From positions 1 through 39,107 of the forward strand of contig CAIRHD010000447.1 of assembly GCA_903878265.1 (NCBI GenBank): 39,107 nucleotides of DNA. The letters are read 5' to 3'. A program made the translations under genes and the position numbers. Positions 2,410-28,512 of this stretch are shown here, piece by piece (position 1 is the first letter of the stretch; each line of letters starts with the position of its first letter). Below the pieces are notes generated by a model. That model was given only the letters and a program-made list of their open reading frames with translations. It did no database searches and had not been told where the DNA came from. This DNA comes from an uncultured Bacteroidales bacterium (GTDB lineage Bacteria > Bacteroidota > Bacteroidia > Bacteroidales > UBA4417).

Positions 2410-2437
2410 ATTTAACATAATATTAATTATGGGACTT
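2410..2437. other. Chromosomal dif site / attL (XerCD recombination site)
   Basis: The 28-bp layout is a left arm ATTTAACATAA, a 6-bp centre TATTAA and a right arm TTATGGGACTT. The left arm is the exact reverse complement of the XerD arm of E. coli dif (TTATGTTAAAT). The right arm keeps the ATAA next to the centre expected of a XerC arm. Read in E. coli orientation, 21 of 28 bases match by hand count. The centre and right arm recur at 23582-23598, at the other end of the element. After integration this end would carry the chromosomal XerD arm joined to the element-derived XerC arm, giving a complete dif. Confidence 0.85.
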
Positions 2438-2558
2438 TTTGAAAAAGTATATATGTTGAATATCAGATAGTTGCAAATATCAAAGACAACAACAATATAG
2501 GCCGGGCGCAAACAGTTGGACTGACAAATAAAAACCAAAAAATCATAACATACTGATT

Positions 2559-7142: not shown

Positions 7143-7223
7143 TCAGTATTTTATTGCTGTGTACAAATACCAGGCACCAATAACAAGTATCAGCGCGGCG
7201 GCGGTTATTTTAAGTGTTTTCAT
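7143..7223 (-). CDS. 26-aa single-pass membrane peptide
   Basis: The frame starts with ATG at 7223, overlapping the end of the glucosaminidase gene by 4 bp, and stops with TGA at 7143. The product is almost entirely one membrane helix (ITAAALILVIGAWYLYTAI). The tight spacing on both sides (4-bp overlap, 2-bp gap) supports a real gene despite its size. It could be a virion membrane peptide or a holin-like factor next to the peptidoglycan hydrolase. Confidence 0.6.
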   Translation of the reverse strand: MKTLKITAAALILVIGAWYLYTAIKY

Positions 7224-7696
7224 GGTTTTTTTTTTACGTCCAAGCGTTTCAGGTTGTGGCTTTTAATAATGCTTACAAGGCTTTGCGCATAATTGGGATC
7301 GGTGGCATAACCGGCGGCTTGCAAGGCGGCGGCTTGCGCTTCGGGCGTGGTGGCCGAAAAAACCCCTGCTTTTGAGTATCGGCTGTTTTGTTGCAAAAAA
7401 TAAGAATGATCGCGGATGCTGTCCGCCAAGGTTGTGTAAAACCTAAATTTTAAATCGTATTGCCCCGATATGCCGTCAACAACTTCCCGTGTATTACTGC
7501 TAACCGCGCTACCCTTCCAATATGGCGAGTGTGCGCCGCTGGCCTTTATGCCAAACATATTGTTGCCTACAACGCTTTTGCCCCACCCGGTTTCGAGTGC
7601 CGCTTGTGCCATCTTTACACTGGGGAAAATGGACGATCCGGCACAGGCTTCTATAACGGCGTTTTCGTAAGTGGATATAAATTGGGATGGTGTCAT
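7220..7696 (-). CDS. Mannosyl-glycoprotein endo-beta-N-acetylglucosaminidase (GH73, FlgJ-like), phage lysin
   Basis: A 158-aa single-domain GH73 glucosaminidase that cleaves the glycan chain of peptidoglycan. The family signature is clear: KMAQAALETGWGKS, with Glu35 as likely catalytic residue, then NNMFGIKA and a C-terminal ATDPNYAQSLVSIIK typical of FlgJ-like lysozymes. It has no signal peptide or anchor, so it would need a holin, or act from the virion. It overlaps its neighbours by 4 bp on each side within the small-membrane-protein operon. It could be an endolysin or a virion-associated entry enzyme; both use the same fold. Confidence 0.9.
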   Translation of the reverse strand: MTPSQFISTYENAVIEACAGSSIFPSVKMAQAALETGWGKSVVGNNMFGIKASGAHSPYWKGSAVSSNTREVVDGISGQYDLKFRFYTTLADSIRDHSYFLQQNSRYSKAGVFSATTPEAQAAALQAAGYATDPNYAQSLVSIIKSHNLKRLDVKKKP

Positions 7697-7872
7697 GTCA
7701 ATCGTTTTTTGATTGCGAAATAACTAACCGTTGCCAGCACGATAAGCACAAATATTACCGTGGATGCTGCAAATAGGCTTTGTTGGTCGAAACCTACATT
7801 TGTATTTACATCAACACTGGGGAACTTGCCGGAAGCTAACCGGCTCCAGAATGTTTCTTTCTTTTCTGCCAT
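7693..7872 (-). CDS. Small single-pass membrane protein (59 aa)
   Basis: The start chosen is the ATG at 7872 (MAEKKETFWSRL); an upstream ATG at 7920 is in frame but lies inside the previous gene. Residues 33-52 form a membrane helix (FAASTVIFVLIVLATVSYF) followed by a basic tail (AIKKRLT). The stop overlaps the start of the glucosaminidase gene (ATGA). Candidate virion membrane protein or holin. Confidence 0.65.
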   Translation of the reverse strand: MAEKKETFWSRLASGKFPSVDVNTNVGFDQQSLFAASTVIFVLIVLATVSYFAIKKRLT

Positions 7873-7882
7873 TTCGGTATTT

Positions 7883-8311
7883 TTAAAAAGGCCACCACGA
7901 CCACGAATTAGAATCGTCAACCACAGTGCCGCCCACCGACAACTGTTTCCCGGTAATTGCCGAATATTGTTTCCAGAATATTACACCGGGATAATTATTT
8001 GCCAGCAACGCCTTCAATGTTTTGGGTCCAAACTTGCCATCGGCTACCAAACCGGCATTATGCTTTGTGTTTAGCGCGTCCTGTATATCTTTTACAAGCG
8101 TATTTTGCATAGAACCAGCCACCCACCCACTTCCGATTTTTAGCGGCATAGGGTTTTTTTCGGTTGGTTTTGTTGGCTTGTTTCCGGTATCGGAGCCACC
8201 ACCACCCGTTGCTGGGTCTGTAATTGGCGGTTCGGAGGGTTTACGGAAAAGGAAGTAAGCGGCCAAAGCCAGTACCAATACAACCGAAACTACTATTATC
8301 GTTTTTTTCAT
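7883..8311 (-). CDS. Membrane-anchored protein with peptidoglycan-binding-like domain
   Basis: A 142-aa protein with an N-terminal membrane helix (residues 3-21, IIVVSVVLVLALAAYFLF). A Gly/Pro/Thr-rich linker (about 25-55) follows. The C-terminal domain around residues 70-110 resembles PG_binding_1 (DIQDALNTKHNAG then DGKFGPKTLKALLA). Proteins of this design tether complexes to peptidoglycan. In a membrane-containing phage it could guide the particle to the cell wall during entry, alongside the glucosaminidase two genes downstream. It overlaps the upstream stop by one base. Confidence 0.7.
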   Translation of the reverse strand: MKKTIIVVSVVLVLALAAYFLFRKPSEPPITDPATGGGGSDTGNKPTKPTEKNPMPLKIGSGWVAGSMQNTLVKDIQDALNTKHNAGLVADGKFGPKTLKALLANNYPGVIFWKQYSAITGKQLSVGGTVVDDSNSWSWWPF

Positions 8312-8745
8312 CAGAATGAGAAATTAATGTTTTTGTTTTTCAAAACCTCGTTTATATCGGCGGTTTCTTTTGCCGATAGCTCTAATTGAAACCATTGTTG
8401 GAGTGTTTTATCGCCCCACCAGCCATAATAAGGCCGTGCGCCAAAAGCCTTTATAAGCTGCAACAGATCGGATAAGTTTTGCATCTTGCTTATAATGCCT
8501 GTAACCGCACTGTTATCGGTGCCCAAGTATGCCATTGCATCGTGTATTTTGTCGGCCAAGGCTACATACTGGTTAAGCGGATAACTCAACTCGTTTGGCT
8601 GAATCTCGTTGCCCAATGCGTTGCCATATAGATCCGTTTTTGCCGTGCGGATAGCTTTGCGGATAAGGAAGTAAAGCGATACCACAACCAACAGCACAAA
8701 AGCCGCTTTGATGAGTGTGGCCTGATTCATTTTGTCGAATTTCAT
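8311..8745 (-). CDS. Single-pass membrane protein of the virion block
   Basis: A 144-aa protein with an N-terminal membrane helix (residues 8-26, AAFVLLVVVSLYFLIRK). The C-terminal region is helical (AVTGIISKMQNLSDLLQLIK and FGARPYYGWWGDKTLQQWF), with a loose resemblance to annexin-like or peptidoglycan-binding helices (GDKTLQQW compares with GPKTLKAL of the next gene). It overlaps neighbours on both sides. It may be a paralogue of the downstream anchored protein, both being N-in membrane proteins with a globular end. Confidence 0.65.
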   Translation of the reverse strand: MKFDKMNQATLIKAAFVLLVVVSLYFLIRKAIRTAKTDLYGNALGNEIQPNELSYPLNQYVALADKIHDAMAYLGTDNSAVTGIISKMQNLSDLLQLIKAFGARPYYGWWGDKTLQQWFQLELSAKETADINEVLKNKNINFSF

Positions 8746-8870
8746 TTTTTACGGAATTTAAAGCAAACAATAATTACCACCAAAGCCAAAACAAACACGA
8801 TAGCGGTTTTCTTTTTAACTTCCAAGCCAAAATAAGCAAGGATACAGCAATTGTCGTTTTCGGCTTCCAT
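8742..8870 (-). CDS. 42-aa single-pass membrane protein
   Basis: The frame starts with ATG at 8870, sharing one base with the upstream stop (TAATG), and ends with TGA at 8742, overlapping the next start as ATGA. The sequence starts MEAENDNCCILAYFGLEV and ends in a hydrophobic helix (TAIVFVLALVVIIVCFKF) with a basic tail. Junctions on both sides support a real gene. Candidate minor virion membrane protein. Confidence 0.65.
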   Translation of the reverse strand: MEAENDNCCILAYFGLEVKKKTAIVFVLALVVIIVCFKFRKK

Positions 8871-9100
8871 TACTTTTTACGGGTTCTGTAATATATCACG
8901 CCGCCAATCAAAAGTACCATTGCCACGACAACAATAATAATTGTGGGATCTGAATTGCCACTTGTAGCATCTTTTACTTCTGCGGCTTTCAATTCGTTGT
9001 TCAATTTGTCGTTCAATGAATCTTCGTACCGTTTTTGTTCGCATTTTTTCCCGCGAAGGAAACTACACCTATTCACCCCATCGGGTCCTGTATTTGCCAT
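8870..9100 (-). CDS. C-terminally anchored small membrane protein (76 aa)
   Basis: The N-terminal 50 residues are soluble and charged (RCSFLRGKKCEQKRYEDSL), with a CxxxxxxxC pair. Residues 52-70 form a membrane helix (IIIVVVAMVLLIGGVIYY) followed by RTRKK. It abuts the metallopeptidase-like gene (shared base at 9100) and the 42-aa gene. Tail-anchored small proteins in a row are the hallmark of this block. Confidence 0.7.
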   Translation of the reverse strand: MANTGPDGVNRCSFLRGKKCEQKRYEDSLNDKLNNELKAAEVKDATSGNSDPTIIIVVVAMVLLIGGVIYYRTRKK

Positions 9101-9633
9101 TATTTAGGTTTTTTTAAAATCAGTATTATTGTTACTATGGCAACCAAGAACACACCTCCCAAGATAATAAGTGTTTTGTTGTTTTTAGCCGAAAGCCTTT
9201 GGTTTATCCATGAATTTGCGGCTGCGTTGTCGGCTTCTGATTTTCGGTTTTTTGCACCAATGCCAAAAATCTTGAATGTTTCGTTGCTTACGGTGCCTAT
9301 CGTGCCAACAGCGTTTCCGATTCCCTCAAAAAAATTGCCAGAAATATATTTTCCCGGGTCGGTTATTTCCGTGAGTACCTGTATCCTTTTGCCCAATTCG
9401 GCATCGGTGAGGGTTTGCACTGTAATAAACCTATCTACCGCGTACTTGTTGGCCTGGTACTCGCTGGCGGTCATCAGCTCCAAATGCCCGGCTTCGTGCA
9501 ACAAAACAAACTCACGTTCCAAGCCGGTAAGCCTCCCCCATATTGCAGGGTTAAGGAATAGAGTGCGATCGGCACGGTTTACCCTTGCTATGTCGGTACT
9601 TATTGTATTGTCGAAAATTACCCTGTTGAACAT
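9100..9633 (-). CDS. Membrane-anchored HExxH metallopeptidase-like protein
   Basis: A 177-aa protein. Around residue 45 it has LLHEAGHLE, an HExxH zinc-binding motif, followed by SEYQANKYAVDRF. That spacing and the Glu-x-x-x-x-x-Ala pattern match minimal zincins where the third ligand is a Glu in an ExxA(D) helix. The C-terminus is a membrane helix (residues 155-173, LIILGGVFLVAIVTIILIL) with a KKPK tail. It is probably a virion or membrane protease acting in maturation, entry or release. The fold is short, so activity is unproven. Confidence 0.65.
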   Translation of the reverse strand: MFNRVIFDNTISTDIARVNRADRTLFLNPAIWGRLTGLEREFVLLHEAGHLELMTASEYQANKYAVDRFITVQTLTDAELGKRIQVLTEITDPGKYISGNFFEGIGNAVGTIGTVSNETFKIFGIGAKNRKSEADNAAANSWINQRLSAKNNKTLIILGGVFLVAIVTIILILKKPK

Positions 9634-9642
9634 AGCTGCTAT

Positions 9643-9843
9643 TTATGACATGTTGGCCGGTGCGGTGGGCACATTTGCTTTTTGAAAAACACCTTTTCGC
9701 GGTTGCGCATACTTATTCATGTAATCCAATGGTTGTTCGTCCTTCGGTTCGTCCTTTTTGGCAACTTCCGGTTTGCGGATAAAAAACCAATACACGGCAA
9801 ATGCCAAAATGCCGATAAAAATCAAGTTCGTTACGTTTTTCAT
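9643..9843 (-). CDS. N-terminally anchored small membrane protein (66 aa)
   Basis: The start chosen is the ATG at 9843 (MKNVTNLIFIG); the frame is open to 9879 but that part overlaps the upstream gene. A membrane helix spans residues 5-22 (TNLIFIGILAFAVYWFFI), followed by a charged, proline-containing tail with DEPKDEQPLDYMNKYAQPR. It lies 1 bp after the upstream stop. Candidate virion membrane protein. Confidence 0.65.
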   Translation of the reverse strand: MKNVTNLIFIGILAFAVYWFFIRKPEVAKKDEPKDEQPLDYMNKYAQPRKGVFQKANVPTAPANMS

Positions 9844-9844
9844 G

Positions 9845-10306
9845 TTACTTTTTTTTGTAAAACAACAATATGCCAACAACCACGATAATTACAGCCGCTA
9901 CCACATAAATAATGGTATTGGTCTTTTTTTGTGTTTGTTGATCCTGTATGTCGGCAGGCTGAACTCCACCACCCAAAACATTATCTTTAAAACCCTTCAC
10001 GGTTACGCCTGTTTGGCCTATTAGGGTCAAGGTTTTAGCCCAAAAGTCCCAGCCTTTGCCAGTGCCTGTGCTTGCTTGCTCCGTGATCCATTGGTCGTAA
10101 GTAGGCGAGCCCATTTCGTCCGCGCCTCCATAATTGCCGTTAAGCACGGAACCGGGCGAAACCGCTTTTACCAGTTCCATCATAAAATGTGAACCACGCA
10201 TCTCGAAACCTTGCCTCACACCTTTCATGCCGCGAAGCGGTATGCGGTGTATCCTGAAAATATTTTCTGCCTGTGGTGTTGAGAGCAAACTCTCTATATT
10301 TTTCAT
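9845..10306 (-). CDS. C-terminally anchored virion-block protein (153 aa)
   Basis: First gene after the attenuator hairpin that follows the capsid candidate. The N-terminal part is soluble (IFRIHRIPLRGMKGVRQGF), then comes a Gly-rich region (GSVLNGNYGGADEMGSP). The C-terminus is a membrane helix (residues 131-149, IIYVVAAVIIVVVGILLF) followed by YKKK. It is the longest tail-anchored protein next to the capsid gene, so a minor capsid or vertex-to-membrane linker is a reasonable guess. No family is recognised. Confidence 0.7.
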   Translation of the reverse strand: MKNIESLLSTPQAENIFRIHRIPLRGMKGVRQGFEMRGSHFMMELVKAVSPGSVLNGNYGGADEMGSPTYDQWITEQASTGTGKGWDFWAKTLTLIGQTGVTVKGFKDNVLGGGVQPADIQDQQTQKKTNTIIYVVAAVIIVVVGILLFYKKK

Positions 10307-10328
10307 AAAATCAATGTTTTAGGATTAA

Positions 10329-10362
10329 AAAAGCCCACCTACCAGTAAGGCGGTGGGCTTTT
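10329..10362 (-). terminator. Intrinsic terminator/attenuator after the capsid candidate
   Basis: An 11-bp perfect stem (AAAAGCCCACC at 10329-10339 with GGTGGGCTTTT at 10352-10362). On the minus strand it is followed by a T-run (TTTTTAATCC). It lies between two same-strand genes (10383 end and 10306 start), so it probably reduces, rather than ends, expression of the downstream virion genes relative to the capsid gene. Confidence 0.85.
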
Positions 10363-10382
10363 GGCAAAAAGTGGAAGAGGAG

Positions 10383-10943
10383 TTAAAACAAGAATGTGAT
10401 GTTGACGGATGCACCGGCAACCAAAGGGAGCAATATCAATGTGTTGAACCCAAGGGTCAATCCTTCGCTGTCAATTTCGAGCAATGTGGAAATATTGCTG
10501 TATTTGTCGCGAAGCATGTTGAGCGGTATGTACTGGGGGCGCGAACCGGTGAGCGGGGAAACCGTAACAACCTCCATCGTTTGATCGTACGATGCTGTAC
10601 TGGTGGAAACAACGCGGATGGCGCGAACCGGGCGCGAAAAATGTTTCAGATAGCTCAAAAACGACCGGATGGTCATTTTGCTATTGCTCGCGGTGCAGGT
10701 GATCGTGGTTGTGGAAGATCCGGCAACAATACCATCATCAAGAACCGCATCGCAAGCCCAACCAGCGGAAACGATCGCGGCAGGATTGGTAAAAGAAGGC
10801 GTGTCGGCTGTGCCTGATGCGGTAAATATGCTTTTCAGCGTGTCGAAATAAGCGGGACACAAGGCAATAACCTTGTCGGTGCTGTAAGTGTTTGCAACGG
10901 TGAAACTGAATTTTTCACCACCTGCGATTTTTAAATCTGCCAT
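10383..10943 (-). CDS. Candidate major capsid protein (beta-rich, 186 aa)
   Basis: A 186-aa protein, mostly beta-prone, rich in Ser/Thr and small residues (MADLKIAGGEKFSFTVANTY; later SSTTTITCTASNSKMTIRSF), without signal peptide, anchor or catalytic motif. It has a long A-rich leader (a 10-A run directly before ATG) like highly expressed Bacteroidota genes and a strong terminator after it. It is flanked by the packaging and membrane-protein genes. The length would suit a single jelly-roll capsid protein like the small capsid protein of P23-77-type phages, but the fold cannot be confirmed here. It could also be a spike or minor structural protein. Confidence 0.55.
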   Translation of the reverse strand: MADLKIAGGEKFSFTVANTYSTDKVIALCPAYFDTLKSIFTASGTADTPSFTNPAAIVSAGWACDAVLDDGIVAGSSTTTITCTASNSKMTIRSFLSYLKHFSRPVRAIRVVSTSTASYDQTMEVVTVSPLTGSRPQYIPLNMLRDKYSNISTLLEIDSEGLTLGFNTLILLPLVAGASVNITFLF

Positions 10944-10981
10944 TTTTTTTTTTGATTAAAAAGTTTTTAAATTATTTGCTT

Positions 10982-11269
10982 TTAAGCTGTTGGGCGCGTG
11001 AACCCGTTTTCTTCGGCATACCATCCAGCTTCGTTTTTGAGCTGTACGGCATACGACACATTGTTTTTTACCGCCTTTTCCTGTACCAGTTTAACGGTTG
11101 CAGGGTCGTTTTTCATCCATGACAGGTTACGGCTCACTTCGCCATCCCAAGCGGATGTGTTGAGTCCTGAAAGGGTATCGGTTTTGCTTTTGGCGTAAAA
11201 ATACCAACCTGCGGCCACCGCCAGCAAGACAATTACAACCAATACCATATTTTTTTTAATCCAGTCCAT
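10982..11269 (-). CDS. N-terminally anchored small membrane protein (95 aa)
   Basis: A membrane helix at residues 8-26 (MVLVVIVLLAVAAGWYFYA) is followed by about 70 soluble residues (SAWDGEVSRNLSWMKNDPAT, then AVQLKNEAGWYAEENGF). It lies just upstream of the capsid candidate and downstream of the 58-aa membrane protein gene. No family is recognised. Likely virion membrane protein. Confidence 0.7.
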   Translation of the reverse strand: MDWIKKNMVLVVIVLLAVAAGWYFYAKSKTDTLSGLNTSAWDGEVSRNLSWMKNDPATVKLVQEKAVKNNVSYAVQLKNEAGWYAEENGFTRPTA

Positions 11270-11282
11270 GTTTCCTCCTGTG

Positions 11283-11459
11283 TTAAACGGTTGTGGTTTC
11301 GGGTGCGGTTACGGTTTTCTTTTTGGCCAAGCCAAACAAGTTACCAGTCCCCCAATAGGTATCAACCACAAGGCCAATAACAAGGACTGTTGAAATGAAA
11401 GCCAGCCAACCGGCAATATTGCCTTTTGGGGCTGTGGGGAGTTTAGTGTCGAGGCTCAT
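11283..11459 (-). CDS. 58-aa single-pass membrane protein, first gene of the capsid block
   Basis: ATG at 11459, TAA at 11283. The sequence begins MSLDTKLPTAPKG; residues 15-34 form a membrane helix (IAGWLAFISTVLVIGLVVD), followed by a short loop and KKK tail. It lies 13 bp before the next same-strand gene and after an A-rich leader and candidate promoter. Probably a virion membrane protein. Confidence 0.6.
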   Translation of the reverse strand: MSLDTKLPTAPKGNIAGWLAFISTVLVIGLVVDTYWGTGNLFGLAKKKTVTAPETTTV

Positions 11460-11490
11460 TTTTTTAGGTGTTGTTTTATTGGATAGGGCG

Positions 11491-11524
11491 CAAAGTTGAT
11501 ATTGAATAAAATATGCTTTTCAAA
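11491..11524 (-). promoter_or_regulatory. Candidate promoter of the capsid block
   Basis: On the minus strand a TTTG (complement of 11521-11524) precedes CAACTTTG (complement of 11491-11498) by 22 bp. This is close to the Bacteroidota pattern TTTG then TAnnTTTG, with one deviation (CA for TA). It lies in the 190-bp gap between the terminator of the packaging block and the first capsid-block gene, where a new promoter is expected. Confidence 0.35.
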
Positions 11525-11592
11525 CTCCTTTTAAATACTTTCAAATATTTTCATATAATGTTGATAATTAGTATTTAATGTTATTTAATTGC

Positions 11593-11622
11593 AAAAAAAA
11601 AGCAACCGATCAGTGGGTTGCT
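11593..11622 (-). terminator. Intrinsic terminator of the packaging block
   Basis: The 7-bp stem AGCAACC (11601-11607) pairs with GGTTGCT (11616-11622). On the minus strand it is followed by a nine-T run (complement of 11593-11601). It lies 29 bp after the stop codon of the HTH gene. Confidence 0.8.
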
Positions 11623-11650
11623 ACAAAATAGTTAACTTATAGGTTTATTT

Positions 11651-11845
11651 TCAGGCTGGGAACTCTCCACAAGCTTCAATAATTTGCTTAACCTGAATAG
11701 GTGTATATATATGCGCTCCCCCGGGAAATTGCAAGGTTGGCAAAAAATGTGATAACCATTTACGAAGTATATACACTGACACTTTATATTTATCTGCTAT
11801 TTGGCACAGGCTCATGGCTTCAAAATTTTGGGTTTCGGTTATCAT
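11651..11845 (-). CDS. Small MerR/excisionase-like HTH protein
   Basis: A 64-aa protein with a helix-turn-helix start (MSLCQIADKYKVSVYILRKW, residues 11-30) followed by HIYTPIQVKQIIEACG. The pattern is that of MerR-like or DNA-binding excisionase folds, in which a wing (FPGGAHIYT) follows the HTH. It overlaps the ATPase stop as ATGA and is the last gene before the terminator. It could regulate the late promoter just downstream, or act as a recombination directionality factor for Xer excision; neither is shown. Confidence 0.65.
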   Translation of the reverse strand: MITETQNFEAMSLCQIADKYKVSVYILRKWLSHFLPTLQFPGGAHIYTPIQVKQIIEACGEFPA

Positions 11846-12447
11846 ATTTTGTGTATTTCGTGATAATGTGGGTTTGTGGCCGCTTCGGTATTAATACGCC
11901 GCTGGATGACTTCCCACCGCTTAATGTCGTCAAACCTATCCTTACGGGTAGTAACTGGATCGGTTGTTTTGAATAAAGCAATATGGGAAGTGTAGGCAAA
12001 AAAAGCGGGCGGTATTTTTGAAAAACCGTGGCCCACCGCACAAATATCGAGCATCATTTGCCTACGGCGGACAAATATAGTTTCCAGTATTGCCGATGTG
12101 CTGGGCTTGAAGTATGCCCGGCAATCGTCGAAAACAAGCAATCCTCGTGTAAAATGTTGCCGTATGTTAGTAAGCACGGTTTCGGCTTCGCTGGCTGCAA
12201 CTATTATTTTACGCGCCCCTACATACGCCTGCATACGCTCCGGGAACTGTGGATGCACTTCTGGTATATTAAGCCATTCGGCATCATCGGGCGTGATTAT
12301 CAAAACATGGCTATCCGTTTTTTTGAGCTCGTTCAATACTATTTGCTTCAACAGAGTAGTTTTGCCGGTGCCATTGGTGCCAACTATTACGGTAAACTGT
12401 GGGAAACGGGTTGCGGCTTTAGTTTCCTGTTTGGGTTTCGGTTCCAT
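11842..12447 (-). CDS. Packaging-type P-loop ATPase (PRD1 P9 / A32 / HerA-FtsK-like)
   Basis: A 201-aa single-domain ATPase. Walker A is GTNGTGKT (residues 23-30), Walker B is LLVFDD (103-108), and an Arg-rich helix (FVRRRQMMLDI) precedes a sensor-like GHGFSKIP. Size and motif order match genome-packaging ATPases of PRD1-type internal-membrane phages rather than large terminases, which have a nuclease domain. It overlaps the membrane protein gene upstream by 29 bp and the HTH gene by 4 bp. An inovirus Zot/pI protein is less likely because there is no membrane segment after the ATPase domain. Confidence 0.75.
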   Translation of the reverse strand: MEPKPKQETKAATRFPQFTVIVGTNGTGKTTLLKQIVLNELKKTDSHVLIITPDDAEWLNIPEVHPQFPERMQAYVGARKIIVAASEAETVLTNIRQHFTRGLLVFDDCRAYFKPSTSAILETIFVRRRQMMLDICAVGHGFSKIPPAFFAYTSHIALFKTTDPVTTRKDRFDDIKRWEVIQRRINTEAATNPHYHEIHKI

Positions 12448-13027
12448 CTTTGGCGGCTTTGTCTTTTATTTCGGCCTTAGCCTTCAACATGTTCAATTCA
12501 GCTTCTATATTGGTTTGCCTGTTGGCAATTCTAACTTGCTCATCGGCTTGTCGTTGTTGCTCCTCTTCCATTTTCTTTATTTTGCGGTCGGCAAAAGCCT
12601 CTTTGAATTTAGGTGCAAGTATTATAAGCGTGAGCAAAACAGCTTCCAGTAATGGGTTTGCGCCCGAAAAACCGTAATGCTGCGCCAATCGCCCGTAACT
12701 GTCGGTAAGGTCGCGCCGCTGCCCAGCGCTCATGCGGTACTTATCCTCTTTGTTGCTGCCTATTATGCCGCAAAGGGCACGGCTGCCATTATCAACCAAA
12801 GCGGCCAATTGCTCGCCAGCGGCGGCGGCGGTATCGGCTGAAAACTTTGCCTCCTCTTCGGGCGACAATACTTTTGCAACGCCAGGCATGGGCACAGGTG
12901 GGCGTGGATCGGCACCGGGCAACGGCCCAATGTTATCCTTTTCGATGTTCATATTACTTATATAATCATCGAGGCTCATACGGCTTTCGGGTACTCCGGG
13001 GGCTTTTATGGTTGCTGTTGGGAACAT
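12419..13027 (-). CDS. Membrane protein partner of the ATPase
   Basis: A 202-aa protein. The N-terminal half is soluble and proline-rich (PLPGADPRPPVPMPG). A central helix bundle precedes one hydrophobic segment (residues 128-143, LEAVLLTLIILAPKF). The C-terminal third is a charged coiled coil (EEEQQRQADEQVRIANRQ). Its 3' end overlaps the ATPase gene by 29 bp, suggesting linked expression. It may anchor the ATPase to the virion membrane or vertex. No family is recognised. Confidence 0.7.
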   Translation of the reverse strand: MFPTATIKAPGVPESRMSLDDYISNMNIEKDNIGPLPGADPRPPVPMPGVAKVLSPEEEAKFSADTAAAAGEQLAALVDNGSRALCGIIGSNKEDKYRMSAGQRRDLTDSYGRLAQHYGFSGANPLLEAVLLTLIILAPKFKEAFADRKIKKMEEEQQRQADEQVRIANRQTNIEAELNMLKAKAEIKDKAAKDGTETQTGN

Positions 13028-13028
13028 G

Positions 13029-13319
13029 TTACACTAATTTAAGGATCGTATCAATTAATTGGGAAGCCGGTTCTATTTGTATAAACCGGGTAATGAAAAT
13101 TTTCTGGTCATCGGTTTCGGCACATGCCACGGTTGAGAAATAAATTTCGCCTTTAACCTCATAAAGCAATGCCGAAATTTCGGTTTCGCCTTCAAGTAAT
13201 GGTATAGATTTTTTCTTTTCCAAAACGGCTGAAATCATCAGGTTTACCATTTCGGTAATATTATCCTTTCCCAGCATGGATATTGCCCCAGCTACAAGGT
13301 TGCGTTTTATGGCGTTCAT
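13029..13319 (-). CDS. Hypothetical small soluble protein
   Basis: A 96-aa protein, N-terminal helical (LVAGAISMLGKDNITEMVNL) and C-terminal beta-prone (ISALLYEVKGEIYFSTVACA). There is no membrane segment. The start overlaps the previous stop (ATGA) and the next gene begins 1 bp after its stop, so it is a firm member of the packaging block. Function unknown. Confidence 0.7.
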   Translation of the reverse strand: MNAIKRNLVAGAISMLGKDNITEMVNLMISAVLEKKKSIPLLEGETEISALLYEVKGEIYFSTVACAETDDQKIFITRFIQIEPASQLIDTILKLV

Positions 13320-13796: not shown

Positions 13797-13801
13797 TGGG
13801 G

Positions 13802-13903
13802 TCGTTTTGCTATACAGCGTAAGCAAATAAAATTATCGGCGTCGATGTTTTCGGTAGTTTCGGCAAAGTATAACCCTATCGGCTTATCTGATAGGGTTTT
13901 TTT
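13802..13903 (+). ncRNA. Candidate antisense small RNA, about 100 nt
   Basis: It is bounded by the TAnnTTTG promoter (13789-13796) and a strong plus-strand terminator (13874-13903). No convincing frame is present on this strand. The RNA would be antisense to the leader upstream of the RHH-like gene and to the 3' end of the nuclease gene, so it could control either by pairing. The 5' end is an estimate from promoter spacing. Confidence 0.5.
13874..13903 (+). terminator. Intrinsic terminator of the candidate small RNA
   Basis: A perfect 7-bp stem CCCTATC (13874-13880) with GATAGGG (13890-13896) around a 9-base loop, followed on the plus strand by seven T. On the minus strand no T-run follows, so it works in the plus direction. 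The stop codon of the minus-strand nuclease gene lies inside its left arm. Confidence 0.75.
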
Positions 13904-14337
13904 CGTAAATCGAAAGCGGTCAATAACCATTTTTTACTTTTATTTTTATCAATAGCTACTACAAACCTAAATAAGTCGCTTTGATAAACTTTTTTATGGG
14001 GTTCTGATTTTTTGGCGTTAAAATCCCCAAATTGAACAACAATAGGTATAAAACTTTCTATCTCAAAACCCAACTGCTCAATTTCTTTTCCATGCTTTTC
14101 AATAATATGTTTTAACCCAAAACCTATATTTGTTAATGGGTCGTTTTCACCCCAAACAATATCAATAAAACCTATATCATCACGATAAAGGGCGTTAACT
14201 GCTTCGCCTTCCTTTACCTTTATCAAGTGCTTGATTGCCTTTACAGGTTGATTTTCAAACTGAGTGTAAATTGTTCCGAATACTCCCTTTTTCATTAGGT
14301 ATTGATTATCATTATTATAAACCTGAACTCTTACCAC
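13876..14337 (-). CDS. Putative barnase/EndoU/colicin E5-like (PBECR-type) nuclease
   Basis: A 153-aa soluble protein. The central region DIVWGENDPLTNIGFGLKHI and IIEKHGKEIEQLGFE resembles the PBECR (phage barnase-EndoU-colicin E5/D-RelE-like) nucleases found in phage proteins, where a conserved His of the HIxxKH motif is catalytic. A Lys/Arg-rich C-terminus follows (IDKNKSKKWLLTAFDLRKK). The assignment is by motif memory and moderate. It stands alone between the iteron region and the packaging block, which suits an RNase used in host takeover, exclusion or copy control. It has no visible antitoxin. Confidence 0.55.
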   Translation of the reverse strand: MVRVQVYNNDNQYLMKKGVFGTIYTQFENQPVKAIKHLIKVKEGEAVNALYRDDIGFIDIVWGENDPLTNIGFGLKHIIEKHGKEIEQLGFEIESFIPIVVQFGDFNAKKSEPHKKVYQSDLFRFVVAIDKNKSKKWLLTAFDLRKKPYQISR

Positions 14338-14578
14338 TTGTAAACATAGTTATCTGCCAACTGTAACCATACACACCTACAATAAGCAAACTTGATTGGA
14401 CTTTGAATGCAAACCACAAAAATACATCACTACCAAACTGTTTGTTAACGGAGTTATTAAACTTCGTACATTGTAAAAAAGTTGGCTAAAAACTTGACAG
14501 GCATCAAATTTTAAATTTCAATCCTCGTAAACTTACCGATAACGACATACAGAGCAGAGTTAAAAAGTGAAGAAAAAG

Positions 14579-14948
14579 CTGTAACCTTGTAACCTTGTAA
14601 CTATTGCTCAAAATCAATACTTTAAGTGAAAAAAAATCGGTTACAACTTTTTTATGGAGTTGTAACAGGCTTTTTTTGCCGTTTTTATATGCTGTTAAAT
14701 TGTATATATTAGGCTCGGTTACAAATATCAAAAAAGTTGTAACCTTTGTAACCAAAAAGTTGTAACCAAATTTTTAAATACAACTTACTTATTATCAATT
14801 ATTTACATCTCTTCCCTTTTTTGGTTACAAGGTTACAAATATTTAGTAAGTTTTAAGGGGTTAACAAGGGTAGAAAATTTGGCGGAAAGTCAAACATACG
14901 AAGACAAAACCGCTTTCGCGGTGCTATTTGTGCCGGAAGTTTGTAACC
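14579..14948. repeat. Iteron cluster, candidate replication origin
   Basis: About twelve copies of TTGTAAC(C) or its reverse complement GGTTACAA occur in 370 bp, at 14579, 14587, 14595, 14639, 14660, 14717, 14737, 14746, 14760, 14823, 14831 and 14941, in both orientations (two as tandem pairs, one pair as a hairpin at 14640-14666). The surrounding gap from 14338 to 14993 has no convincing gene; the one open frame across it is made of the repeats. Iterons in an AT-rich gap beside replication genes typically bind an initiator. Regulatory operator use is the alternative. Confidence 0.7.
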
Positions 14949-14960
14949 AATGTGGGTAAA

Positions 14961-14995
14961 AAGAAAAAAGCCAGCGCGGAGGGGTCCGGCTGGCT
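14961..14995 (-). terminator. Intrinsic terminator of the toxin-antitoxin operon
   Basis: The 7-bp stem AGCCAGC (14969-14975) pairs with GCTGGCT (14989-14995); on the minus strand a T-run (TTTTTTCTTTTT) follows. The toxin stop codon (14994-14996) overlaps the stem. Confidence 0.8.
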
Positions 14996-15284
14996 ATGTA
15001 GCAGTTATGGGCTGGCTGTAAAGCTGCCGATAATGAAACCTTAGTGATATTACTTCAATTCTATCATCAAGTATTTTGTAAACAAGCCGGTGTTCGTCGT
15101 TTATATGCCTCGACCAACAACCCGACAACTCATGTTTAAGGCATTCGGGTTTTGCTATGCCTGTGGTTGGCGTTTCTGCTATAACTGTCAAGATTTGGGA
15201 AATCTTCTTTTGTACGGCTTTGTTTCCGCTCTTTTTCCAGAACAATAAATCCTCTTCGGCTACTGGCGTATAAGTTATTTCCAT
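14994..15284 (-). CDS. yoeB: YoeB-type toxin (Txe/YoeB family ribosome-dependent mRNA interferase)
   Basis: A 96-aa protein of the RelE/ParE superfamily. Family motifs are clear: CWSRHINDEHRLVYKI near residues 52-67 and a C-terminal RFHY with the catalytic-type His and Tyr. YoeB cleaves mRNA in the ribosomal A site when its antitoxin is lost. It overlaps the antitoxin gene by 10 bp and is followed by its own terminator. In this element it probably stabilises the prophage or acts against competing phages. Confidence 0.85.
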   Translation of the reverse strand: MEITYTPVAEEDLLFWKKSGNKAVQKKISQILTVIAETPTTGIAKPECLKHELSGCWSRHINDEHRLVYKILDDRIEVISLRFHYRQLYSQPITAT

Positions 15285-15487
15285 ATATCAGCCGTTTTTA
15301 TTGCCCTCGACTTACCTTCTTTCGACTGCTCTAATGATCGGGCAAGGCTATCGCTGTTTGCTTTGGTTGAAAGCAAATATTCGGTTTCGTCAGGATTGCC
15401 CGAAAAAGAAATTTTTAAGCGTGTTACAACGTCCATTATTGCAACCAACTGCGCTTTATCTTTTACTTTTAGTACCAGTGTTGTCAT
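15275..15487 (-). CDS. Antitoxin of the YoeB-type pair
   Basis: A 70-aa protein. The N-terminal part (TTLVLKVKDKAQLVAIMDVV) is a strand-helix unit typical of short antitoxins that bind DNA as dimers; the rest (EQSKEGKSRAIKTADIW) is the flexible toxin-binding tail with the common C-terminal hydrophobic anchor. It is not a classical YefM by sequence; it resembles DUF2683-type antitoxins from Bacteroidota. It lies upstream of the toxin and overlaps it, the usual order. Confidence 0.75.
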   Translation of the reverse strand: MTTLVLKVKDKAQLVAIMDVVTRLKISFSGNPDETEYLLSTKANSDSLARSLEQSKEGKSRAIKTADIWK

Positions 15488-15503
15488 TTTGTTGATTTTT
15501 ATG

Positions 15504-15511
15504 CAAAGTTA
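15504..15511 (-). promoter_or_regulatory. Promoter -7 box of the toxin-antitoxin operon
   Basis: On the minus strand the complement of 15504-15511 reads TAACTTTG, a perfect TAnnTTTG box, 16 bp upstream of the antitoxin ATG. The leader would be only about 10 nt. No clear TTG occurs at the expected -33 position. Confidence 0.5.
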
Positions 15512-15579
15512 GATAATTTGCGACCATGTAGGGGCGATATTTGTGGGTAATTGTCAATTCTTTACAAAATATTGGATTG

Positions 15580-15888
15580 TCAGGCGGTTGAGAAATCCGA
15601 TTTTTCAGGCCATTTGGCATACCGTTGCACCCTTGTAAAATTGTCGTGAAACTGAAACTCACGGGTAAGGTTACAAGTAACAAGTATGAAGCTTAGGCAT
15701 TTCAGGAACTTGGGCAATTCGGCCACGGCCATTATGTTTGGCAGTTTTATCTGTGTTTCGTTTTCAAAACCTGCAACAAACTTATCAACGGTGTACAAAT
15801 ACTTTAGTTGTTCGGCGTTAAGCTTTGGCAGCCAGGTTTCGCACTGCGCTACCGTGGTGAACATGTAGGGAGGTGTTTGCTGTTCCAT
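15580..15888 (-). CDS. Hypothetical protein downstream of the PP-loop protein
   Basis: A 102-aa soluble protein (TVAQCETWLPKLNAEQLKYL, then FVAGFENETQIKLPN). It starts in contact with the PP-loop stop (no gap), so the two are co-transcribed. No family is recognised. A single GGTTACAA iteron-like copy (15669-15676) is inside it, probably by chance. Confidence 0.65.
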   Translation of the reverse strand: MEQQTPPYMFTTVAQCETWLPKLNAEQLKYLYTVDKFVAGFENETQIKLPNIMAVAELPKFLKCLSFILVTCNLTREFQFHDNFTRVQRYAKWPEKSDFSTA

Positions 15889-16776
15889 TTATTCACAAAG
15901 ATTATATACACTTAGGCAACCAGGAGTTTCAGTATCAAACAAATCAATAGTATTATTTTTACCTTTAATATATCGCTCTATATCCTCAGCAGTTGAATAC
16001 CTTTTGCCTGCCGATGTAATTCCAGTCCTGAAACGGAAAGGAATATAATCGGGCTTAAAGAATGACGAGTTAAGACCAATTTCAGCGGCTTTTACTGCGT
16101 TCCATTGTTCGGGGTGGTTCTCTATTATTAATTTTAAACCTGAATGATTATTCATAATACACGGAAAACAACCAACCCGACTAAAACCCATATAATAAAG
16201 AGGGTTAACATCCTGCTTTTTTTTTTTGATAAAATTAATTGTATCTATGGCCGACCAGTTAAATATGGGTCTGAGTTTATCAGCGTTATATTTTTCACAC
16301 CATTTAATTATATCCTTTTTTCTATATGTATAAAATTTAGGTTTCCCTTTTTTATCAAAATCGTAAGGCTCGAAATAATATTTAAAGTATGTACATTCGG
16401 CATTCATTTTAGACCTGGCATTGCTTTCGTTTCTGCGGATCCCTTCTATAATTAATAAATTATCATTCTGATTTAAAATAAAATCAATAGCAGGTATGAT
16501 TTTTAATTCTTGAGTACAAAATCGGGCTTTTGTAGATGGAAATCTTTTTCTTTTAAAAGCCAAATCAATCATTCCGTTATATTTTTTAGATTTTATTATT
16601 TCAAGTTTAACGGATAAATCTTTGCATGTTTCTGTAATGTGATTATATGTTATTGGGTTTTCCCATCCAGTATCACAAAAAACAGCGGTGCAATTGTTTA
16701 GGCCATATCTTTCTATTGATAGGATCAAAGCGGCTTGACTGTCTTTCCCGCCACTGTAAAAAACTAATACTTTCAT
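15889..16776 (-). CDS. PP-loop ATPase, PAPS reductase family (DndC-like)
   Basis: A 295-aa protein. The PP-loop motif is YSGGKDSQAA (residues 8-17), followed by FCDTGWENPITYNHI as in phosphoadenosine-phosphosulfate reductases. A later GCFPCIMNNHSGL (near residue 203) gives two cysteines that may bind an Fe-S cluster, as in DndC-type proteins. The family activates a substrate with ATP for sulfur transfer or reduction; phage members are common but mostly uncharacterised. No other dnd genes are seen, so phosphorothioation cannot be claimed. It lies just downstream of the primase-helicase gene. Confidence 0.85.
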   Translation of the reverse strand: MKVLVFYSGGKDSQAALILSIERYGLNNCTAVFCDTGWENPITYNHITETCKDLSVKLEIIKSKKYNGMIDLAFKRKRFPSTKARFCTQELKIIPAIDFILNQNDNLLIIEGIRRNESNARSKMNAECTYFKYYFEPYDFDKKGKPKFYTYRKKDIIKWCEKYNADKLRPIFNWSAIDTINFIKKKKQDVNPLYYMGFSRVGCFPCIMNNHSGLKLIIENHPEQWNAVKAAEIGLNSSFFKPDYIPFRFRTGITSAGKRYSTAEDIERYIKGKNNTIDLFDTETPGCLSVYNLCE

Positions 16777-16799: not shown

Positions 16800-19658
16800 T
16801 TAAATCGCTGGCAAATCGTTATCGTTTCCGGGATATTTTATTGTTTGCTCGTCTTCGGGCAGTGGATCGGTAAGCTGGGCAAAATCGTACTTTAAATCGT
16901 TATCAATGGTTTGTATGTAAATCATTTCCTGTGGGCGGTTGTTATTGTCCTTTTTGATAATGCGGCCATCTTTGGTATTGTGCTTTTGCTTGGGGTTTAA
17001 CTCCTTAATCCAAGGATGGTATTTGCACCACATAAGCAAGCGGCGGCCAAACATTATTGAACTATCCTTGCGGTTGGTTTTTAAATAATCTTCCATCACA
17101 TCGGCGCGGATCAGCTCGGTATTAACCTTATCGCCATCGGGAGCAAAATAACGGTCTGCCCAATCTTTGAAAGCATCGCCTATGCCTTCGCGAAGGTTGC
17201 GGCGGCGTACATTCTCCATAGGTGGGTCAATCTTCCGGTTTGGGGCTATGGTACTCATGTAAAAGCTAACACATTCGGCTATGGCATTGAAATCGTTGTT
17301 GAAATCTTCCTTTGAATAGCTGCCGCGCAAAATCTCCTGGTTAAAGTCGTCCCAAATTTTACGGGTTTCGCGGAAATCGTTGTTTTCGGTGCGCTCGTGG
17401 TAATAATCGCTAAACACGCAATACAATAACCGGGCTTGTGTGCTATCGTCCAAGTTGCGGCTGGCGTAATTGGTGGTAACTACAATTTTGGGCGCAAGCT
17501 CGAAGGGCAAAGTAAATTGTTTGCCAAATTTTGGGTTAACCGGCATTACTTCCGTTACCATCCCGAAGAAGGTTTGAAAAGGAAAATATTTATGTGCATC
17601 GTTTATCACCAGTAAGCGGGTTAGCTCGGTTACTTCCTCCAAAAAGTGTTTGTTATCGGTAAGTTTCTCGTTGCGGCCTTCAACATAAGCCGATATACGG
17701 AACATTTGCAAGGCCATATACACAAAGCTTTTGCCCGATCGTCCGTTGCTGCTTCCTTCCTCACTAATGCGGTTATCCATGCCAAACACACACCATGCCC
17801 GGTGTTTTGCTTTCCAACTGTGCAAAAGGTAGCCGATTGTAAATATTTTGTTTAACAGGTGTTGGCGTTGCTCTTCCTGTTCCAGTGCGGTAAGGTTAGG
17901 GCCCGCAATATCAAACTTATGATCCATGCGGTACTTTTCGGCTTCGTCTTTTGGCAGTTTATCCAATTCGGTTTCCAGTTCCTTGCGCCAATGCACACGG
18001 CTTGTGTTTATAAGCACTTTAAAAAACTTGCTTGCGTTGTTTGTTACCTGAATATCGTAACGCTTTGTGGCTTCGTTCCATGCGGTAGTAAAAGCCGGGG
18101 CGGTGCGCTTAAAGTCCTTTTTTATCACAAGCGGCTCCCACACGTTTTTTAACAGTCCTTTGTATGGTTCGGCCTTTATTTCGCTTGCGGTAATTTTAAT
18201 GGCGGTGTTGGCGAAAAACAGGTATTGGTAATCCATTTCAAAATCGTTGAAATCCAGGTCGCAAAAGTCGAGGCGTTTCAAGGCTTCAACAATCTTTTTA
18301 CTGTTGATCACAAGGTTTTGAACGTTGATGGGGTGGTAATTATCCTCCAACCATTTTTTAATGAAATCCTTTATAAAGCTTTCGGTAACTTGCTGTACAA
18401 CATTGTTTTTTATGTAAATAAGTATTTCGTTATCCTTGCTGGCGGCAAATGGCATTTTATAAAAACCGTGGAGCTTCAAAAAATGGATCAGGTAAATGCT
18501 GTTAAGTTCGAGGCGTTGGCCAAACTGGCTTTCTTTGGTTTCCCAAAATTGCGCTGGCTTGGCGGCTGTGAGCAAGTTTTTAAAATCGTGGATGCTGGGG
18601 CTTAGTTCCACATAGTCGCGCAAATCCTTGCGGGGCTTGCGGCGGCTGTCGTTGTAGTTTTTAATCCATTCGGGCAACCACATGGTTTGTATATCAATGT
18701 AGTTTAGTGCAAGTTCGGCGGCTTTATTTTTGCCTGTATTATCAATATCGGGGATATTGTAAAGCGTTTTCACATACTTTTTAATCTCCTTGTATTCGGT
18801 GGCGGTTAGGCTGTACGTTTCGCTGTTGAACCATAAAGGCGGATAGCCAAAGCTGGCACAATTGAGCGCATCGCGCTCGCCGCTGCAAATAATAGCTTCG
18901 TCAAGTTTAACATCGGGGCAAGGTATGTTTTCGTTTGCAGGGTCGGCATAATGGGCTTTTTGCTCCTGTGCGTTGTATGCCTGATAAGCTGCTATAAGTT
19001 CGGCCATACCGTTAATATAGTTTGGGGCTTTGCTGCCGATATAAAAAAAACGGTATTCCTTTTTGGGGTTAAGGGGTTGGTAAACTTTTTGAAAATCGCC
19101 ACACTGGCGCAAAAATATGGGGTAATTCTCGTTGCTGCTGGTAATGGTAACGCGGCGGGGATGCTTTACACCGTCCTTGGTGTGTTCGGGCTTTACCTTG
19201 CTGGTCCATTTAACTGAATAGTAGCCTAATTTTTTGCAATGTTCGTTGGTTACGTTAGGACCCAACAACTTCAACTCTTCGGCTGTAAACTCGGGGTTTA
19301 GTTCGTAATCATATTTGCCGTCCACTTCATCGGGTAGCGGGTCGCGCTGCTTAATGGTGGGTATGTTTTTGGTACTGCTTATTTCGGCTTGTAGGTTGTA
19401 TTTTCCGGCAAGGTAATACAGGGCTTTCGGGAAGTTCATTTTTTCTTCCTTCATCACTATATCAATGGGGCTTAACGCGCGGGCTTCGTCGCCAAAATCG
19501 GTGGCTTTCCACACATCGCCATACAGTTTAACGGTTGCACTGGCTGTGTTTTCGCTGTGCATCTTAAAATGTTTGCCCGGTTCGGCATCAGGAAAATAGG
19601 CTTTTATAATATCCAAACCGCCATTGGTGAGTGCGTAAATATCGGCTGGCTTAACCAT
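16800..19658 (-). CDS. Primase-helicase (CHC2-like/TOPRIM primase fused to SF3-type helicase)
   Basis: The start chosen is the ATG at 19658; a GTG at 19664 is the alternative. The 952-aa protein has a CHC2-like N-terminal domain (VWKATDFGDEARALSPIDIV), a TOPRIM core near residue 260 (DEAIICSGERDALNCASFG, then PDIDNTGKN) and a helicase domain near residues 610-800. That domain has Walker A GSSNGRSGKS, Walker B LLVINDAHK and sensor IVVTTNYASRN. It is the only replication enzyme seen; host polymerase must be used. The start overlaps the upstream DnaA-like gene. It supports double-stranded DNA replication of the element rather than rolling-circle replication. Confidence 0.9.
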   Translation of the reverse strand: MVKPADIYALTNGGLDIIKAYFPDAEPGKHFKMHSENTASATVKLYGDVWKATDFGDEARALSPIDIVMKEEKMNFPKALYYLAGKYNLQAEISSTKNIPTIKQRDPLPDEVDGKYDYELNPEFTAEELKLLGPNVTNEHCKKLGYYSVKWTSKVKPEHTKDGVKHPRRVTITSSNENYPIFLRQCGDFQKVYQPLNPKKEYRFFYIGSKAPNYINGMAELIAAYQAYNAQEQKAHYADPANENIPCPDVKLDEAIICSGERDALNCASFGYPPLWFNSETYSLTATEYKEIKKYVKTLYNIPDIDNTGKNKAAELALNYIDIQTMWLPEWIKNYNDSRRKPRKDLRDYVELSPSIHDFKNLLTAAKPAQFWETKESQFGQRLELNSIYLIHFLKLHGFYKMPFAASKDNEILIYIKNNVVQQVTESFIKDFIKKWLEDNYHPINVQNLVINSKKIVEALKRLDFCDLDFNDFEMDYQYLFFANTAIKITASEIKAEPYKGLLKNVWEPLVIKKDFKRTAPAFTTAWNEATKRYDIQVTNNASKFFKVLINTSRVHWRKELETELDKLPKDEAEKYRMDHKFDIAGPNLTALEQEEQRQHLLNKIFTIGYLLHSWKAKHRAWCVFGMDNRISEEGSSNGRSGKSFVYMALQMFRISAYVEGRNEKLTDNKHFLEEVTELTRLLVINDAHKYFPFQTFFGMVTEVMPVNPKFGKQFTLPFELAPKIVVTTNYASRNLDDSTQARLLYCVFSDYYHERTENNDFRETRKIWDDFNQEILRGSYSKEDFNNDFNAIAECVSFYMSTIAPNRKIDPPMENVRRRNLREGIGDAFKDWADRYFAPDGDKVNTELIRADVMEDYLKTNRKDSSIMFGRRLLMWCKYHPWIKELNPKQKHNTKDGRIIKKDNNNRPQEMIYIQTIDNDLKYDFAQLTDPLPEDEQTIKYPGNDNDLPAI

Positions 19659-19932
19659 TGGCACATGCTTGTATTAGGCTGTAAGTAGCTCTGAAATCGC
19701 GGTTGTTTTTTAGCATTTCGGCGGCACGTTTGCGGCTGTTTGAAATTGTGCCTATATTCTTCCGTTTCAATGCAACTGCTATTTCACTGTATTTGTAGCC
19801 ATTATCGTAAGCAATATTGGCTATGGCGTGGCGCACAATGGTAATATCGTCCTTTCGGGTGTCGCTGGTGAGGGTTTCGGGTGTTATGCCCAATATTTTA
19901 GCCCCTTGCAAAATAAGTTCGTTGATTTTCAT
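19651..19932 (-). CDS. DnaA domain IV-like DNA-binding protein
   Basis: A 93-aa protein. The middle (IVRHAIANIAYDNGYKYSEI then AVALKRKNIGTISNSRKRAA) follows the pattern of DnaA domain IV, where R-x-x-A-I-x-x-A-x-x-x-x-G-x-x-x-x-x-I precedes a helix-turn-helix and a signature loop. The DHTT signature is replaced here by KNIGTI. It overlaps the primase-helicase gene by 8 bp and the upstream gene by 4 bp. It could be the iteron or origin binding factor that loads the helicase, or a transcription factor. Confidence 0.65.
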   Translation of the reverse strand: MKINELILQGAKILGITPETLTSDTRKDDITIVRHAIANIAYDNGYKYSEIAVALKRKNIGTISNSRKRAAEMLKNNRDFRATYSLIQACANG

Positions 19933-21347: not shown

Positions 21348-21351
21348 AAGT

Positions 21352-23570: not shown

Positions 23571-23598
23571 TTTTCGCATACTATTAATTATGGGACTT
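23571..23598. other. attR, degenerate dif-like site at the right end
   Basis: Layout: left arm TTTTCGCATAC, centre TATTAA, right arm TTATGGGACTT. The centre and right arm are identical to attL (2421-2437), but the left (XerD-type) arm matches the dif arm at only 7 of 11 positions. This is what is expected if the element's attP supplied a weak XerD arm and the chromosome supplied the XerC arm here. Confidence 0.8.
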
Positions 23599-23726
23599 TT
23601 TGCGATACGGCCCATATTGATAATCAAGCAGTTACAAAAGCAAAAGCAAATGAATTTAGTCGATTTCCATTAGTGAATATGGCCAAAATGGCCCAAACCT
23701 CTATAAAACGCTGATATTCATTACGT

Positions 23727-28276: not shown

Positions 28277-28512
28277 GCCTGTTTTTGATTGACAATTAAT
28301 ATAGAACAATACTGTCTGAACATATTTTATATAATACTGATAATGTGAATTTTAATCAATAAATAATTGGAACAGGGAGCAGAAAATCAATATTTGTTTT
28401 GGTGATTCAAAAATTATTTCACTTTTATGGAAATAAATTTTCAAAACCATTGAAAAAAACCTTAATTTGCCGCAATAAAAGTATCTCAAGAATTTACATT
28501 AAATCAACAGAA

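Follow-up and report, generated by a model that had tools for sequence, protein, structure and literature searches.

The noncoding gap at positions 14338-14993 of the window (the whole 39,107-nucleotide stretch of DNA that was analysed) is probably the replication origin of a 21.2-kb dif-site element, used by the element's own primase-helicase (rough probability 0.75). The gap holds an array of TTGTAAC iterons, for which an ordinary function, that of an origin, is proposed in an unusual element; the broad kind proposed for it is the iteron origin of a primase-helicase. If this reading is true, a dif-integrated prophage of a little-known type, whose host is probably a member of the Bacteroidota, would gain an origin and an initiator that can be tested, and origins in many uncultured phages would be predictable from sequence. 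The features discussed are collected in Table 1.

Table 1. Positions of the iterons, neighbouring genes and element ends in the window.
Feature	Position	Strand	Basis
Left dif-like repeat, intact XerD-type arm	2411-2441		repeat search and pattern search
PBECR1-domain gene, first on the gap's other side	13876-14337	-	family match
Iteron array, proposed replication origin	14579-14947	both	word counts and simulations
TTGTAAC starts, + strand	14587, 14595, 14660, 14737, 14746, 14760, 14941	+	
TTGTAAC starts, - strand	14640, 14718, 14824, 14832	-	
Set I: tandem of three copies, the first a mismatch copy, 8-bp period	about 14580-14601	+	word positions
Set II: inverted pair, potential 11-bp hairpin	14640-14666	both	word positions
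Set III: four copies, one of them inverted	14718-14766	both	word positions
Spacer between sets III and IV, 79% AT, candidate unwinding region	14767-14823		role inferred
Set IV: tandem of two copies, 8-bp period	14824-14838	-	word positions
YoeB-family toxin gene	14994-15284	-	family match
Likely antitoxin gene, DUF2683 match	15275-15487	-	role inferred from position
954-aa primase-helicase, proposed initiator	16800-19664	-	profile, fold, motifs
93-aa protein, DnaA domain IV match below threshold, possibly an accessory binder	19651-19932	-	
Right dif-like repeat, altered XerD-type arm	23572-23602		repeat search and pattern search

Exact TTGTAAC occurred 11 times at 14587-14947, with seven copies on the + strand and four on the - strand, and a further copy at 14579 (CTGTAAC) differed in its first letter only. 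Together these copies account for the "about twelve" iterons, in both orientations within 370 bp, that the earlier note had reported. The tandem and hairpin pairs it described were also present: the copies form four sets and one outlier (the copy at 14941), with tandems in sets I and IV and a hairpin-capable inverted pair in set II. Across the whole window TTGTAAC was observed 21 times against 7.55 expected. In 300 first-order Markov simulations there were at most three copies per 370 bp, against the 11 observed, and in 60 simulated windows any 7-mer reached five copies at most. The TTGTAAC array is not a product of chance. In the host assembly (5.78 Mb) the tandem form TTGTAACN{0,3}TTGTAAC had three hits, all of them within the array. 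Folding of the array as single-stranded DNA was stronger than that of shuffled sequences (z -3.1), a value that the inverted iterons by themselves would produce.

The gap is gene-free as described, in that ORFs of at least 50 aa numbered just two, both short (53 and 83 aa) and both with TTG starts. The spacers of the array ranged from 60 to 79% AT (69-79% between sets I-IV) compared with 60% for the whole element. The description of the gap as AT-rich is therefore true of parts only. Among 60-bp segments of the gap, the one beginning at 14745 is the least stable, and it ranks as the tenth least stable in the element. An Rfam search of 13800-15600 gave no match, a blastn comparison of the gap with named phages returned short chance matches alone (7 records, E 0.7), and the GC skew of the element showed no switch at the array, with its minimum at 10231.

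On one side the gap is flanked by the YoeB-family toxin gene, followed by the likely antitoxin gene, so that the array does sit beside toxin-antitoxin genes. On the other side the gap lies upstream of the leftward late block, which starts with the PBECR1-domain gene. From this position, a regulator with many sites could control the late genes, and the array would then be an operator or enhancer of the late operon beginning at 14337. The probability of this is low: promoter-like matches in the gap were at the level of chance (3 against a mean of 2.3, in a scan without Bacteroidota promoters), and the arrays compared below follow primase-helicase genes and are untied to any one downstream gene.

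The 3' end of the primase-helicase gene faces the array at a distance of 1853 bp, with four genes between. A PAPS-reductase-like gene (15889-16776) lies between the primase-helicase gene and the toxin-antitoxin pair. DNA matches were found to a same-genus genome (L172, 9471-10435), at 90.7% over 225 bp in the YoeB gene and 75% over 122 bp in a 102-aa gene, and in that genome the homologues of both genes sit 5' of the primase-helicase gene. The YoeB toxin gene and the 102-aa gene (14994-15888) are probably mobile cargo. Insertion of cargo may account for the 1.85 kb between gene and array, a reading that is suggestive only.

A Pfam scan of the 954-aa protein gave no match. A seven-member profile of its family matched 1d0q, the zinc domain of DnaG, at E 2.7e-13, and motifs read by eye included the TOPRIM-like GERDAL and DID and the SF3-like GRSGKS and TTN. 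A first structure model, made with seven sequences, was poor (pLDDT 49) and was set aside. The model used covered residues 345-954, was made with 42 sequences and had a mean pLDDT of 84. Its best structural match was the SaPI5 primase-helicase (7om0; Z 19.8, rmsd 4.8, 383 aligned), followed by pox D5/E5 and, further down, by the NrS-1 CTR (6lrb, Z 14.3), in comparisons made with Foldseek and VIA-align. The SaPI5 alignment extended to model residue 560, which is about residue 904 of 954. The protein is predicted to be a primase-helicase with a DnaG-type zinc domain and an SF3 helicase of the SaPI5/D5 fold.

When IMG/VR was searched with the 954-aa sequence alone, no relative could be confirmed. 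An alignment search returned 52 relatives in IMG/VR and 28 in titled genomes; the titles of the latter name taxa that we take to belong to the Bacteroidota, save one "uncultured bacterium". No truly close relative was among those found, the best identity being about 32%. Near relatives were the 19 matched at 220 bits or more, of which 15 had enough downstream DNA. The four entries L168, L336, L169 and L333, which end at most 187 bp behind the gene, were left out of the 15; L169 and L333, apparently one and the same 6665-base contig, represent the best-scoring relative.

In 13 of the 15 near relatives a noncoding 7-mer cluster was found on the 3' side of the gene, with scores of 13.3-23.1; the pass threshold was 9.0 and the top score in 56 simulations was 8.2. 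All 11 near relatives from IMG/VR had such a cluster. When equal flanks were compared in nine of these 11 (L286 and L290, with too little upstream DNA, were left out), the cluster was downstream in eight and upstream in none. Among 28 wider relatives, listed by hand and, like the nine, from IMG/VR only, ten had clusters downstream and one upstream. In the wider family, 58 loci had 3 kb or more of downstream DNA, and 19 of them passed 9.0. Upstream noncoding clusters were seen in L331 and, among the titled genomes, in L335 (GAGTATA, seven copies), L342 and L343. The Tenacibaculum loci L334 and L335 had no noncoding cluster on the 3' side and had clusters within coding DNA instead. In L334, 24 copies of GAACAGA and ten of AACAGGT were clustered in a coding stretch (7713-8482) behind the primase-helicase gene.

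In ten of the 13 near relatives the first copy of the cluster lay anywhere from 56 bp within the end of the gene to 110 bp beyond it, and the cluster started 743 bp behind the gene in L282, 1934 bp in L337 and 5158 bp in L281. The cluster words varied by lineage: GCGTCAA (seven loci), TGACAAA (three loci), CCGTCAA, AATTACA and, in L282, GGTTACA/TTGTAAC, which is also the word of the window. With GCGTCAA common to seven loci and TGACAAA to three, the near relatives are not independent, and the 13 loci correspond to about five or six lineages. In L282 (31% identity) nine copies of GGTTACA were found together with seven of TTGTAAC in 500 bp, 3' of the gene. A word that varies with lineage, at a place mostly kept behind the gene, is the pattern that matched initiator-iteron pairs would give. 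A second motif, TCARYRARTTA, was present beside the iterons in the gaps of L281, L284, L287, L288 and L359, and was absent from the window gap, L282 and L337.

TTGTAAC arrays were also found in other phage contigs. The pattern TTGTAACCTTGTAACC occurred in 108 IMG/VR stretches. At least 99 loci (the window and L282 included) carried arrays of six or more copies per 600 bp in both orientations, and these collapsed to 52 DNA groups; because TTGTAAC itself was the pattern used to retrieve the IMG/VR loci, the counts are no census. Among the matches listed, 26 of the 52 groups had an ORF of 300 aa or longer no more than 300 bp from the array, and in 24 of these 26 the 3' end of the large ORF faced the array. 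Many of the ORFs were primase-helicases: DUF5906 was matched in 12, VapE-like in six, DUF927 in five, D5_N in three, HTH_56 (Cch) in three and NrS-1 HBD in two, in counts that may overlap where one protein had several matches. Among the matches listed, the other 26 groups had no large ORF within 300 bp, and many of the contigs are short. Some arrays stood beside non-replication genes, with PGI in L033 and a collagen-like gene in L200.

Control ORFs from the same loci numbered 85 of 96, with 11 left out by hand (seven from other viral loci and four from L282). None of the above families was among the 25 listed for these controls, so that each can occur at most twice in the 85 ORFs. Clusters of at least six copies in two orientations were found for TTGTAAC in 52 of the 114 stretches listed, against two of 50 for the reversed word and four of 45 for a permuted word, and in each of these control-word clusters one of the two orientations was represented by one copy only. 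The 114 loci were listed by hand from at least 120 stretches, and the 52 stretches counted here are a different set from the 52 DNA groups above.

Ten named phages with VapE/primase homologues were picked by hand. A noncoding gap of 268-366 bp followed the primase-helicase gene in eight annotated phages, the gap was absent from NatCom_991, and EFP1 is unannotated. A clear cluster was found behind the gene in six of the ten (EFP1, 2638A, FutureBee, phi105, Dina and SW6) and a weak one in P9. No cluster was found behind the gene in BV741P4, SJC20 or NatCom_991.

The most interesting question raised by these arrays is how so many different phages come to have one iteron word, at loci spanning 23 to 58% GC. 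Tentatively, TTGTAAC may be a shared iteron word at the origins of phages with quite different primase-helicases, possibly of the VapE, D5/DUF5906, DUF927/Cch-like, PrimPol, NrS-1-like and DnaG-zinc plus SF3 types. The cause might be an exchanged recognition domain or small factor, or a strand-opening or priming property of the sequence. The C-terminal domains of TTGTAAC-linked initiators matched one another only where the proteins belong to a related set, and a shared recognition domain is therefore without support; that of the window protein likewise had no match among these initiators beyond its own family. A literature search for the TTGTAAC word at phage origins found nothing, and among the matches listed for GTTACAA none of the ten titles concerned an origin iteron.

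The origin reading leaves room for a different binder. The earlier note had put forward the DnaA-like 93-aa protein, and in this alternative the array would be an origin bound by that protein, which would in turn recruit the primase-helicase. The gene of the 93-aa protein overlaps the start of the primase-helicase gene, and, out of five near relatives tested, L281 and L282 likewise have a DnaA-like gene; in L282, which has TTGTAAC too, a DnaA_C-like gene (E 1.3e-6) lies between the primase-helicase gene and the array. However, the Bac_DnaA_C match of the window protein (E 1e-4) is under the Pfam cut-off, L284, L287 and L288 have strong arrays and no DnaA-like match, and such a match was present in two of the 46 TTGTAAC-array records tested (L282 and L130), many of these records being fragments. 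DnaA boxes (TTATNCACA) numbered no exact and two one-mismatch copies in the gap, with a window total of 69 against 54.65 expected, and clustering of the boxes was looked for in the gap and not found. The case for the 93-aa protein as binder is weak on these grounds, and this alternative is unlikely. The primase-helicase is the better candidate because it is the commoner companion of the arrays.

The ends of the element were defined by 31-bp direct repeats that are dif-like and 90% identical, and a third copy, at 71%, was found at 28325. A 27-base pattern made from the left repeat (up to three mismatches) occurred twice in the host, at the element's two ends. It occurred once each in G006, G011, G012 and G019 and was absent from the other 20 of the 24 relatives searched. 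The arm ATTATGTTAAA was kept in the left copy and in these four relatives, while the right copy reads AGTATGCGAAA. One account of phage dif-like sites describes their XerD arm as considerably degenerate (PMC3025954). Flanking dif-like sites with one altered XerD arm, as in XerCD-dependent integrative elements (IMEX), are thus present here. The scan of window proteins, which did not extend to several small ORFs, listed no integrase family. The dif-like ends and the lack of a recognised integrase suggest an element of 21.2 kb (about 2411-23602) that sits in the host dif site, would have been integrated by host XerCD and would have a circular stage. Once excised, such a circle would require its own origin.

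No terminase, portal or tail family was listed among the element proteins scanned, and the element is possibly a tail-less virus. The region 7220-13319 holds small genes, some with hydrophobic starts as judged by eye, and a glucosaminidase. A 201-aa P-loop protein (11842-12447) gave weak Zot/A32-like matches; a relative of it (35%) is found in L337, in a locus that also has a primase-helicase and the CCGTCAA array. Repeats of 66 bp lie at 4689-5168 within a gene (4551-5777) with a BspA-type leucine-rich-repeat match, and a 37-bp repeat occurs three times, at 21351, 21621 and 22347, at the ends of small early genes.

The array could instead be a packaging site (pac) bound by a terminase small subunit or another packaging protein. 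The window array adjoins the late block, and in 24 related loci the array and the gene of a terminase small subunit are some 80-95 bp apart. These terminase-adjacent arrays are one lineage, however, and the prevailing placement of arrays at the 3' ends of large ORFs, many for primase-helicases, argues against packaging. In the window the neighbours of the array are the YoeB toxin gene and the PBECR1 gene, and with no terminase family listed among the element proteins scanned, the sole packaging-type gene seen in the element is that of the P-loop protein. A pac site is accordingly improbable.

The earlier note had offered either an origin or a partition site for an episomal stage. The comparison with other loci, and the dif-like ends without a recognised integrase, favour the origin half of this proposal. 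Plasmid iteron arrays also act as centromeres, and here a toxin-antitoxin pair adjoins the array; the partition half nevertheless fared badly, as the scan of window proteins (several small ORFs being outside it) listed no family of ParA or ParB type, and linkage to the 3' side of primase-helicase genes would be unexpected for a partition site. That the array is the centromere of an episome is very improbable.

In the preferred reading, that of an origin used by the primase-helicase, the element would be excised from dif, presumably by host XerCD, and the resulting circle would be copied from the gap. Given the SaPI/PICI-like layout described below, we propose that the TTGTAAC copies are bound by the primase-helicase, via its C-terminal domain, and that the enzyme forms hexamers on the iteron sets. 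Opening of the AT-rich spacers would follow, after which the enzyme would load itself and make the primers from which replication would proceed. The array, the predicted helicase fold, the dif-like ends and the linkage of iteron clusters to the 3' side of this gene family and of other primase-helicases are what the analysis showed; we infer the binding, the unwinding, the origin activity and the XerCD-driven excision.

Four known systems were compared with the array. The origin of plasmid pRN1 is also described as lying 3' of a primase-helicase gene, but as a large stem-loop without iterons (PMC4234260). The NrS-1 primase-polymerase shares the helicase fold noted above. Its recognition sequence, TTTGGTTA (PMC8718748), lies within set IV, which reads TTTGGTTACAA on the + strand; unlike the window element, NrS-1 has a PrimPol, its genome is described as having just two copies of the site (PMC7102993), and the site serves as a single-strand template for priming. 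For these reasons the match of set IV to the NrS-1 8-mer may be due to chance.

The P4 iteron differs from TTGTAAC. Compared by description, with the TOPRIM motifs of the window protein read by eye, the likeness to P4 alpha would lie in a TOPRIM-type primase, an SF3 helicase and origin repeats: P4 alpha is described as a TOPRIM-type primase fused to an SF3 helicase, with origin repeats bound by a winged-helix domain (PMC4234260).

In SaPIs, Rep is reported to bind iterons directly downstream of rep via its C-terminal domain (PMC7581432), and PICI origins are described as lying 3' of rep, with an AT-rich stretch flanked by two sets of iterons (PMC6092414). The window differs in several respects: gene and array are separated by 1853 bp instead of the array following directly downstream, there are four sets and one outlier rather than two sets, the window protein has a DnaG-type zinc domain at its N-terminus, and the element, with its dif-like ends and no recognised integrase, is no recognised PICI. 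Because the "directly downstream" feature fails, the array was not filed as a SaPI-type origin. The SaPI/PICI layout of short iteron sets around AT-rich DNA, 3' of a self-loading primase-helicase, is nevertheless the one that the window resembles, with multiple short iterons present and a predicted helicase fold that is nearest to the SaPI5 primase-helicase.
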